The position numbers and the translations under genes were made by a program. A DNA stretch of 36,635 nucleotides from Candidatus Methanoperedens sp. Its GTDB lineage: Archaea; Halobacteriota; Methanosarcinia; Methanosarcinales; Methanoperedenaceae. Below the pieces are notes generated by a model. That model was given only the letters and a program-made list of their open reading frames with translations. It was not told the DNA's origin and searched no databases. The stretch is taken from NCBI GenBank assembly GCA_012026795.1, contig VEPM01000038.1, forward strand, positions 1 to 36,635, in the 5' to 3' direction. Shown one piece after another: positions 8,103 through 11,830 of this stretch (position 1 is its first letter; every line of letters starts with the position of its first letter).

Positions 8103-9311
8103 ATGAAAGGTGGAATTAAGAATAAATTGCTAATTGAATTGCTGGTAGCCTTTGTAATTGTTAATATTTCTACTGCTGGGGCTTATAATACAGGTCCTTA
8201 CCCGGGGAATAGTTTCGTTGACCCGTCAGTTCAAATAAATGTCAGTGATTTCTCTATTGGTTCCGAGACTTATGTTGGCCCGTTCACTTCATTCTCCGGA
8301 GAATATGCCCATATAGGCAGTTACAGCGATTTTCAGGACGGCGTCAGCAATTCCGGAAATATAACTGTTAAAGATGATGCTGTGATCGCTCATGGGGCAG
8401 ATCTTGTTGGAGAAGTAGAAATTGGAAGCAAGGCATTTATTGGATTTAATACACTTATCAAAGATTCAAAAATTGGCGATAATGCCTATATCGGAATCGG
8501 AAGCAAAATAACGGGTATTGACATTCCCCCTGGAAAATCAGTGCCGGAAGCAGCAGTGATCGATAGTGCAGATGATATTGAAAAGCTTAAAAACGTTACA
8601 GAAGAGCAGGAAGAATTTGTTCAGGAAGTAATAAACGTAAATAGAGTCCTTGCGATAGGGTATACCAGGCTATTCGAGAAGAGTGGTGTATCGGCATTTG
8701 GTAAAGTCGGCCCTAATGGGGATGGTGATATATTATTGGAGGGAAAGGATATCCTTGCCCGTAGTGGAAGTAATGAACCTGTTATCGGGGCTGGATCAGT
8801 TATTGAGTCAGCCCGCATAATCGGGGATGTTTTCCTTGGTGAGAATAGTAAAGTCAAAAGTGGGACATCTATCAGGGCAGATGAAGGGATTCCCACAAAA
8901 ATTGGGAAGAATGCAATTATAGGCATGAATAATACATTCCATTCCTTGAATGATCAAGAGATCATTATTGGAAATGATCTTAACCTGGGAAGCGATTCAG
9001 TATTACATGGACAGCTCATTATAGGGAACAATGTCAGAATAGGTAATAATGCAGTGGTTTTTAAGTCCACGATAGGAAATAACGTGGAGATAGGTGACAA
9101 TGCGATTGTTGTAGGCGTGAAAGTCCCGGATGGAACTGTAATACCTTCCGGTTCTGTGGTCTTAACAAAGAAAGATGTGAGATTATTGAATCCTGAAGCC
9201 GTTGCACCAGGCACAAGATTTGCCTCAATAACGGATTTATTCCTTGTAGGCATGGTCCCGATAGTTCTAGGCCTTGCTGCATCAGTGATCCTGAGAAAAA
9301 AAGAGCATTAA
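8103..9311 (+). CDS. Membrane-anchored protein with two gamma-carbonic-anhydrase-like beta-helix domains
   Basis: A 402-residue exported protein: signal peptide 1-27, two left-handed beta-helix (hexapeptide) domains at about 38-155 and 225-360, and a C-terminal anchor (376-397) with a KKEH tail. The second domain closely follows the Cam carbonic anhydrase of Methanosarcina: SIRADEG (R258, D260, E261), H280 and H302 match Cam Arg59, Asp61, Glu62, His81 and His122. The Cam His117 position is Ser (S297). Domain 1 has the reverse pattern: H97 at the His117 position (VIAHGADLVG) but no His81 or His122 equivalent. Helix TVTEEQ-type linker 158-195 joins them. It may be an extracellular carbonic anhydrase with a composite zinc site, or a non-catalytic relative. 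ATG 8103 is preferred over GTG 8073 because GAGG precedes it and the signal peptide then fits. Confidence 0.82.
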   Translation: MKGGIKNKLLIELLVAFVIVNISTAGAYNTGPYPGNSFVDPSVQINVSDFSIGSETYVGPFTSFSGEYAHIGSYSDFQDGVSNSGNITVKDDAVIAHGADLVGEVEIGSKAFIGFNTLIKDSKIGDNAYIGIGSKITGIDIPPGKSVPEAAVIDSADDIEKLKNVTEEQEEFVQEVINVNRVLAIGYTRLFEKSGVSAFGKVGPNGDGDILLEGKDILARSGSNEPVIGAGSVIESARIIGDVFLGENSKVKSGTSIRADEGIPTKIGKNAIIGMNNTFHSLNDQEIIIGNDLNLGSDSVLHGQLIIGNNVRIGNNAVVFKSTIGNNVEIGDNAIVVGVKVPDGTVIPSGSVVLTKKDVRLLNPEAVAPGTRFASITDLFLVGMVPIVLGLAASVILRKKEH

Positions 9312-10681: not shown

Positions 10682-11830
10682 ATGATGAGATTTGTCTTTA
10701 TCTGCATATTTTTACTATTAGGAGCAAATATTGTAGCAGCACAGCCTGTACCATCTGCTCAGTCTGTAATAACAGTTAATATTAACGAAAGTGGAGATGC
10801 GGTATGGACCATGGAAAAATTCTTTCCTCTTTCACAGTCCGATTTAAACCAATGGGAAAGTGCCATAAAAACTGGCCAGAACATGTCCAATTATAGAAAT
10901 ATTCCGGATTACGAAATTATTATCAAATCATTTCAGTATTCAGCAGCTAATTTCTCAAACCGCACAATGGAAATTGAGCCCTTCAATATCTCATATGATA
11001 CCAGGAAAACATTTTCAGATGGGCTCGGAATTATAAGATATACTTTCAAATGGACAAATTTTTCTTATAATGATTCAGAAAAAATATATATAGGGGATGC
11101 CTTCCCCGGTGGTCTCCTCTCACCGGATAACCAGCTAGTAATCAAAATACCTGATGGGTATAATGTTACAAATGTGACGCCTGTTTATGATAAAAAGAAT
11201 GGGAACCTTTTGATCTGGGATGGGACTCTTTATAGTAATCTCAGCAGCGGGGAACCAAATATTATACTCTCCCGGGAGAACGTAACAGTTCAGGCTATAG
11301 AAAATGCCGGGAATGAAAAAGAATCATGGCTGGCAAAATTGCCAATCCTGGAGATCGCCATAATTTTCCTCTCTATTATAGCATTAGCTGCTTTTATTAG
11401 ATTATTGAAAAAAAGGCGTTCAGGAAAAGTCTCCACAGCAGAAATGGTATCACAGATGCCAAAAGAGATGCTTCATGAAATTTCTGAAATCCCGGGAGCA
11501 TGGACACAAATTGTGGAATCTATTCAAAATCAATTTGGAAATGAATCCATAGAAGAATTGGAGAAGGCTGCAAGAGAACAGAGAATGAAAAACATGGGGC
11601 TTGATCCCAGTATTCCACTTTCCGACCTGGCAAAAGAAGACCTGGAGGATGAGGAGATGGTAAAACAATTCCTTCTCAGGTCAGGTGGACAGGCATATCA
11701 AACCGATATTGTTGAACATAGCGGACTATCAAAATCCAAGATCAGCATGGTTCTTTCCAAAATGAAAGACGATGGTATGATAATAAAGATAAGAAAAGGT
11801 AAAGAAAACCTGATAAGACTGGTTCAGTGA
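10682..11830 (+). CDS. Membrane-anchored winged-helix regulator with exported N-terminal domain
   Basis: A 382-residue protein with a signal peptide (1-20), an extracytoplasmic beta-rich domain of about 190 residues with many N-glycosylation sequons (such as NVTNVT, NLSS), one membrane helix (221-239) followed by KKRR, a charged helical linker and a C-terminal winged helix (about 326-382: LLRSGGQAYQTDIVEHSGL, SKSKISMVLSKMKDDGMI). This layout, known in many archaeal proteins, suggests an outside sensor with a DNA-binding domain on the inner face. The ligand and target are unknown. ATG 10682 and 10685 are both possible. It is followed 25 bp later by the DNPH1-like gene and may share its transcript. 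Confidence 0.75.
   Translation: MMRFVFICIFLLLGANIVAAQPVPSAQSVITVNINESGDAVWTMEKFFPLSQSDLNQWESAIKTGQNMSNYRNIPDYEIIIKSFQYSAANFSNRTMEIEPFNISYDTRKTFSDGLGIIRYTFKWTNFSYNDSEKIYIGDAFPGGLLSPDNQLVIKIPDGYNVTNVTPVYDKKNGNLLIWDGTLYSNLSSGEPNIILSRENVTVQAIENAGNEKESWLAKLPILEIAIIFLSIIALAAFIRLLKKRRSGKVSTAEMVSQMPKEMLHEISEIPGAWTQIVESIQNQFGNESIEELEKAAREQRMKNMGLDPSIPLSDLAKEDLEDEEMVKQFLLRSGGQAYQTDIVEHSGLSKSKISMVLSKMKDDGMIIKIRKGKENLIRLVQ

Follow-up and report, generated by a model that had tools for sequence, protein, structure and literature searches.

Complementary half-sites in the two fused gamma-carbonic-anhydrase-like domains of a predicted exported protein of Candidatus Methanoperedens

Gamma-carbonic anhydrases are textbook trimers with their active sites between subunits. 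Here, we describe a gene in a 36,635-nucleotide stretch of DNA from Candidatus Methanoperedens sp. (the whole stretch is referred to below as the window) that encodes two fused gamma-carbonic-anhydrase-like domains. The first domain keeps the active-site residues of one side of the canonical subunit interface and the second domain keeps those of the other side. We propose that the protein is probably a single-chain, single-site gamma-carbonic anhydrase, with one site between its two domains, with its other faces decayed, and with its position outside the membrane.

Layout and family assignment

The features of the gene are listed in Table 1. The soluble part of the protein has a computed mass of 36.0 kDa, and from the alignment the interdomain linker is about 28 residues long. 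A check of the codons placed H97, H280, S297 and H302 exactly where an earlier, sequence-only reading of this DNA had put them, and the signal peptide and C-terminal anchor that it had described correspond to hydrophobic segments with peaks at both ends of the protein. By the positive-inside rule, both domains are predicted to lie on the outer side of the membrane, and we infer a location outside the cell. One of seven relatives, probably a contig-end copy (L078, genome G032), also matches the PGF-CTERM motif (Pfam, 0.00045); given this match, the mode of anchoring may vary across the two-domain family.

Table 1. Positions in the window of the two-domain gene and its features.
Feature	Position	Strand	Description and evidence
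Whole gene	8103..9311	+	402 aa, ATG start; two gamma-carbonic-anhydrase-like domains, predicted to be exported and anchored in the membrane
N-terminal signal peptide or signal anchor, residues 1-27	8103..8183	+	Hydropathy peak at residues 9-27, mean KD 2.14
Domain 1, about residues 32-196, B-face half	8196..8690	+	Left-handed beta-helix and C-terminal helix; alignment, PDB matches
Q78-D79 (Cam Q75-D76), B-face pair in domain 1	8334..8339	+	6/6 orthologues, 84/84 single-domain homologues
H97 (Cam H117), putative third metal ligand, domain 1	8391..8393	+	6/6 orthologues
N180 (Cam N202 position), C-terminal helix of domain 1	8640..8642	+	Invariant, 7/7; alignment
Interdomain linker, about residues 197-224	8691..8774	+	Alignment
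Domain 2, about residues 225-362, A-face half	8775..9188	+	Left-handed beta-helix without C-terminal helix; alignment, PDB matches
R258, D260, E261 (Cam R59, D61, E62), A-face residues of domain 2	8874..8885	+	7/7 orthologues
H280 (Cam H81), putative metal ligand, domain 2	8940..8942	+	7/7
S297 in domain 2 (Cam H117 position), where the ligand is lost	8991..8993	+	Ser in 7/7
H302 (Cam H122), putative metal ligand, domain 2	9006..9008	+	7/7
C-terminal membrane helix, about residues 379-397, then RKKEH	9237..9293	+	Hydropathy peak, mean KD 2.63

By sequence, both domains are gamma-carbonic-anhydrase-like, with the hexapeptide-repeat left-handed beta-helix of that family. The best NCBIfam hits fell under the curated cut-offs of their models (CcmM domain, 2e-37; Cam, 1.4e-34); the model for the Cam subclass (NF040597) scored 119.7 bits over the whole protein and did not reach its curated cut-off of 380. 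Sequence searches of the PDB returned chains of CcmM, dGCA1 and Cam (about 1e-17 to 1e-19); the best match was the C-terminal part of CcmM for domain 1 and Cam for domain 2. Pfam Hexapep was found in 7/7 members of the two-domain family. AlphaFold models built from 7 and 9 sequences were of low confidence (pLDDT 47.3 and 55.9, pTM 0.36 and 0.44, respectively), and Foldseek and VIA-align matched them to pectate lyases, pentapeptide-repeat proteins and other solenoids. We set these models aside because their confidence is low and the sequence evidence for a gamma-carbonic anhydrase fold is strong.

Complementary faces of the two domains

In Cam, the metal is held by H81 and H122 of one subunit and by H117 of its neighbour, and N73, Q75, N202, E62 and E84 are important for catalysis (PMC4519908). 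The interface residues of each side have been tabulated for four gamma-carbonic anhydrases (PMC8000050, Table 2). Side A comprises R45, D47, position 48 (V48; E62 in Cam), H66 (Cam H81), H89 (Cam H122) and the N-terminus, and side B comprises Q60 (Cam Q75), D61 (Cam D76), H84 (Cam H117) and the C-terminal helix (PMC8000050). An inter-subunit salt bridge between R45 of side A and D61 of side B corresponds to the Asp-Arg-Asp* triad of gamma-carbonic anhydrases, and in the trimers the N-terminus of side A touches the C-terminal helix of the neighbouring side B (PMC8000050).

We aligned both domains with 84 single-domain homologues, and mapped the interface positions through L043, a gamma-carbonic anhydrase relative that keeps the spacing; the Cam numbers R59, D61 and D76 were derived by counting along the alignment. 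The 84 rows come from the loci of best matches only and fall into about 12 independent clusters at 70% identity, all 84 being counted; they include five domain rows from tandem Cam proteins, plus two rows (L021 and L023) whose loci carry an in-frame stop close to the match. The columns of Cam H81 and H122 hold H280 and H302, and the column of H117 holds S297 in domain 2 and H97 in domain 1, with an identical assignment from a second alignment method.

Among the single-domain homologues, the A-face columns keep R59 (84/84), D61 (83/84), E62 (64/84), H81 (84/84) and H122 (84/84), and the B-face columns keep Q75, D76 and H117 (84/84 each). Domain 2 has all five A residues (R258, D260, E261, H280 and H302) in 7/7 orthologues and the three B residues in 0/7; domain 1 has the three B residues (Q78, D79 and H97) in 6/6 and the five A residues in 0/6. 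The C-terminal helix of side B, with an Asn at the N202 position, is likewise present in domain 1 and absent from domain 2. Within an orthologue set that is small (6+1) and closely related, H97 is unchanged in 6/6 rather than varying freely, and H280, S297, H302 and N180 are kept in 7/7. We conclude that the histidine pattern is not due to chance, since the three His columns are invariant in the single-domain homologues and the pattern recurs in every orthologue. The sequence-only reading had suggested a composite zinc site between the domains from the three histidines; the complementarity extends to the whole A-face and B-face residue sets, which supports such a site at the level of sequence. 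Other features of Cam are absent: the acidic loop is missing and the position of the proton shuttle E84 is N283; E62 is retained as E261. In the work cited, TeCcmM is active though it also has no E84 (PMC4519908).

The skew is apparent beyond single residues. Using a profile score over 14 A-only and 10 B-only interface positions, domain 2 scored high on A (1.85 to 2.31) and low on B (-0.65 to -1.38), and domain 1 showed the reverse (A, -0.07 to -0.51; B, 2.15 to 2.23); the means of the single-domain rows were 2.39 (A) and 2.44 (B). None of the 84 single-domain rows had a skew equal to that of either domain, and the observed A/B contrast was reached in 0/10000 random column splits and 0/10000 label shuffles. 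The interface list of gamma-PmCA, used as a second list, gave the same picture. When the eight active-site columns were removed, the skew remained clear for domain 2 (A, 0.76-1.57; B, -0.17 to -1.21) and was weak for domain 1 (A, 0.22-1.00; B, 1.21-1.32), the corresponding single-domain minima being 0.65 (A) and 0.54 (B). Domain 1 is diverged overall, with a non-interface score of 0.68-0.90 against a single-domain minimum of 1.19; domain 2 is within range. Among the orthologues, invariant columns of domain 2 are concentrated on the A face (10/13, versus 1/10 on the B face; Fisher p 0.003). For domain 1 we found the A face to be no more variable than the B face (invariant columns 6/12 versus 6/10, p 0.69).

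Outside the active site, mean hydropathy on the A face of domain 1 is -0.54 to -1.26, against a mean of 1.59 and a minimum of -0.50 among the single-domain rows. On the B face of domain 2 it is -1.47 to -3.06, against a single-domain mean of -0.43 and a minimum of -1.69, and it falls under that minimum in 6/7 orthologues. The retained faces, B of domain 1 and A of domain 2, have ordinary hydropathy. Thus, judging from their residues, both unused interfaces resemble surface, which makes a closed trimer unlikely. The interfaces other than the composite one, which the sequence-only reading expected to be empty, look dismantled, being polar and non-consensus, and not just free of metal. For the same reason, the trimer or pseudo-hexamer that had been envisaged is not expected to form as a closed assembly. 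Both domains are under purifying selection: over five pairs, dN/dS was 0.10-0.15 across the mature part and, taken by domain, 0.08-0.16 (domain 1) and 0.10-0.15 (domain 2). Since dN/dS is low in each domain, we conclude that both are functional parts and not decaying copies.

A proposed single composite site and its alternatives

We propose the following arrangement. Domain 1 would take the place of a 'B' subunit, giving H97, Q78, D79 and the C-terminal helix with N180, and domain 2 would take the place of an 'A' subunit, giving H280, H302, E261, R258 and D260. Together, R258-D260 from domain 2 and D79 from domain 1 would restore the ionic Asp-Arg-Asp* triad that otherwise spans two subunits, and one divalent metal (Zn or Fe) would sit at the interface of domain 1 (B) with domain 2 (A). 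With the A face of domain 1 and the B face of domain 2 decayed and polar, the usual three-site trimer would most likely not be closed. By sequence, the metal ligand set is present once per chain and in the correct sense, H280 and H302 from domain 2 and H97 from domain 1, and a homotrimer of either domain alone would have no complete site. We favour an intramolecular site because the chain runs from the B-domain through the linker to the A-domain, joining adjacent termini directly. We infer a cis interface without a third subunit, and predict metal binding and hydration of CO2 from the residues that are kept.

An alternative that we consider unlikely is that the composite site forms in trans, with domain 1 pairing with domain 2 of another chain in a domain-swapped dimer or a longer ring. 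The face pattern alone fits cis and trans pairing equally, and a linker of about 28 residues could permit a swap. However, the retained pair of faces has adjacent C- and N-termini in gamma-carbonic anhydrase trimers (PMC8000050), such that pairing in cis would be easy and a swap unnecessary.

It is also quite unlikely that both domains are catalytically dead and form a structural or binding scaffold, like the plant CAL subunits or some CcmM proteins. That E84, the acidic loop and the C-terminal helix of domain 2 are missing would fit a scaffold, as would the gamma-carbonic anhydrase of plant complex I, which is described as having a zinc site without measured activity (PMC7447434). Under this explanation the kept residues would serve folding and the interface. 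Against it, the three metal ligands and E62, Q75, R59, D61 and D76 are each kept once, on the correct side, in every orthologue that covers them, and decay without function would not be expected to give so clean a split.

We regard as improbable a closed heterotrimer completed by a separate, third gamma-carbonic-anhydrase-like subunit. The gamma-carbonic anhydrases described in the passages cited are trimers, including heterotrimers with one zinc site (PMC4519908, PMC7447434, PMC7567890), which makes such an assembly conceivable. However, the faces that a third subunit would contact are polar and non-consensus. In addition, at E<=1e-40 we found no match to a Cam-type gamma-carbonic anhydrase in 5/6 of the genomes with the full gene, that of the window included, G020 alone having a Cam as well. 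Among the five of six matches listed for the window's genome, two other gamma-carbonic anhydrase genes that were read (L031 and L032) have no obvious signal peptide by eye. With no Cam-type match, and with L031 and L032 lacking an obvious signal peptide, no exported third subunit is therefore evident. Two coaxial homotrimers, with a domain 1 trimer stacked on a domain 2 trimer and no full site, would be the simplest symmetric assembly for three two-domain chains, but can be all but dismissed, as they need A:B contacts inside each domain type, which are exactly the decayed faces.

For the preferred single-site arrangement, the known systems offer partial parallels. Cam of Methanosarcina (NF040597; PDB 1thj/1qrg) shares the beta-helix fold by sequence, H81/H117/H122, E62, Q75, R59, D61 and D76, and export; it differs in being a one-domain homotrimer with three sites, whereas the present protein has two domains, one residue set, and no acidic loop or E84. 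In sequence searches of the PDB, domain 1 with its C-terminal helix was closest to the N-terminal domain of CcmM from the beta-carboxysome, a cytoplasmic protein whose chain carries a single domain of this type, whereas the present protein has two and is predicted to be exported. Plant mitochondrial complex I carries a heterotrimer (CA1/CA2/CAL2) in which the three histidines are complete at only one of three interfaces, where different subunits contribute them (PMC7447434, PMC7567890). This parallel is attractive, but there the subunits are separate and form a closed trimer on the matrix side, whereas here there is one chain of two domains, predicted to be outside.

Domain fusion also occurs in tandem Cam proteins of other Methanosarcinales (L008 and L028), in which gamma-carbonic anhydrase domains are joined in one exported chain; unlike the present protein, these have all three histidines in every domain, and a full set of sites is expected. 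One of them (L008:595-2781, -, genome G050) is an exported protein of 729 aa in which three Cam domains stand in tandem and none lacks any of the three histidines; it is possibly a whole gamma-carbonic anhydrase trimer in one chain. The other (L028:3-1313, -, genome G042) has at least two tandem Cam domains, is cut by the contig edge, and has complete histidines in both.

Distribution, gene neighbourhood and significance

The full two-domain gene was found in 6/31 genomes of the genus examined (G000, G003, G004, G017, G020 and G021), and a partial copy, a fragment at a contig end, was found in G032, from another genus of the family Methanoperedenaceae. Matches at E below 1e-100 occurred in 7/237 genomes of the class, all of them in this family, and in an even phylum sample only 1/392 genomes, that of the window, matched at E<=1e-36. 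A contig scan for relatives recovered the same six and no others. The closest named records are metagenome-assembled genomes of Ca. Methanoperedens, the nearest being 'uncultured archaeon isolate LFW-24' (91% identical). Among viral contigs, the two-domain query gave no match, and hence there was no sign of a viral copy; a CamH query likewise gave none, and a Cam/CcmM query gave two distant single-domain loci. In a tree, domain 1 was placed near a group of single-domain proteins with the motif IAHGAVVHGP and domain 2 was placed elsewhere, and a single clade of both domains was not rejected (AU p 0.17). This test is compatible with an origin by duplication or by fusion of two paralogues.

The order of genes around the two-domain gene is conserved in five genomes (G000, G021, G003, G020 and G004), where it is on its own, flanked on one side by an aminotransferase gene and on the other by genes encoding a methyltransferase and a small unknown protein. 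In G017 (L040:10599-12233, +), fpo genes (A, B, C, D, H, I, K, L, M, N and O) form a run that the two-domain gene closes; 18 bases, with an AGGAG that resembles a ribosome-binding site, separate it from fpoO. We looked for a recurrent link to fpo and found none, the linkage being present at 1/6 full-length loci, that of G017, and not at the five others or at the partial locus. FpoO was found in 33/34 genomes of the family and adjoins the two-domain gene only in G017. We conclude that a single fpo-linked locus does not make a pattern.

In G020, fpoO is followed at a distance of about 10 kb by a Cam gene of the ordinary type, separate from the two-domain gene. In this region (L121:10902-17063, +), the Cam gene has a C-terminal anchor-like end and lies between two chemoreceptor-CheW gene pairs; as a guess, it could be connected with chemotaxis to CO2 or bicarbonate. 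Within the window, a gene at 10682-11830 (+) encodes a protein with DUF7345 and a C-terminal winged-helix-like DUF7343, which looks like a membrane-bound transcription regulator.

The gamma-carbonic anhydrase family and heterotrimers with one site are already known. In the open-licence literature, we found no description of complementary half-sites within one chain with the other faces abandoned, and no paper on a gamma-carbonic anhydrase in Methanoperedens. Fused or two-domain gamma-carbonic anhydrases were likewise not seen in that literature, which is weak evidence of absence. The nearest mention of a similar arrangement is the split FohE/FohE' of methanogens (PMC12667266). In the passages cited, FohE/FohE' of corrosive methanogens is exported and gamma-carbonic-anhydrase-like, is split in two in several Methanobacteria, and has possibly lost a metal ligand; it differs in comprising two genes inside a hydrogenase gene island, and the likeness is by description only (PMC12667266).

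Aside from its structure, the protein bears on how these archaea handle CO2. Methane oxidation by Ca. Methanoperedens ends in CO2. At the outer face of the membrane, the two-domain protein would most likely hydrate CO2 to bicarbonate and a proton, such that CO2 made inside the cell would be hydrated there. Cam of Methanosarcina has been proposed, though not established, to act outside the membrane by hydrating CO2 beside a transporter (PMC7399021). By analogy, the chemistry of the two-domain protein would be the same as that proposed for Cam.

A broader reading, for which we see an even chance, is that the trimer has been abandoned in favour of a single-chain pseudo-dimer, with a half-site on each domain and the unused interfaces facing solvent; this would be a minimal one-site enzyme anchored outside the cells of anaerobic methane oxidisers, which at least one lineage probably makes along with its Fpo complex I. 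The sorting of half-sites into two domains would show the requirements of one site and predicts that the trimer is dispensable. It would thus be a clean case of reductive specialisation following fusion, and an archaeal single-chain counterpart to the one-site gamma-carbonic anhydrase of plant complex I, and it would mark extracytoplasmic handling of CO2 and bicarbonate in Ca. Methanoperedens.
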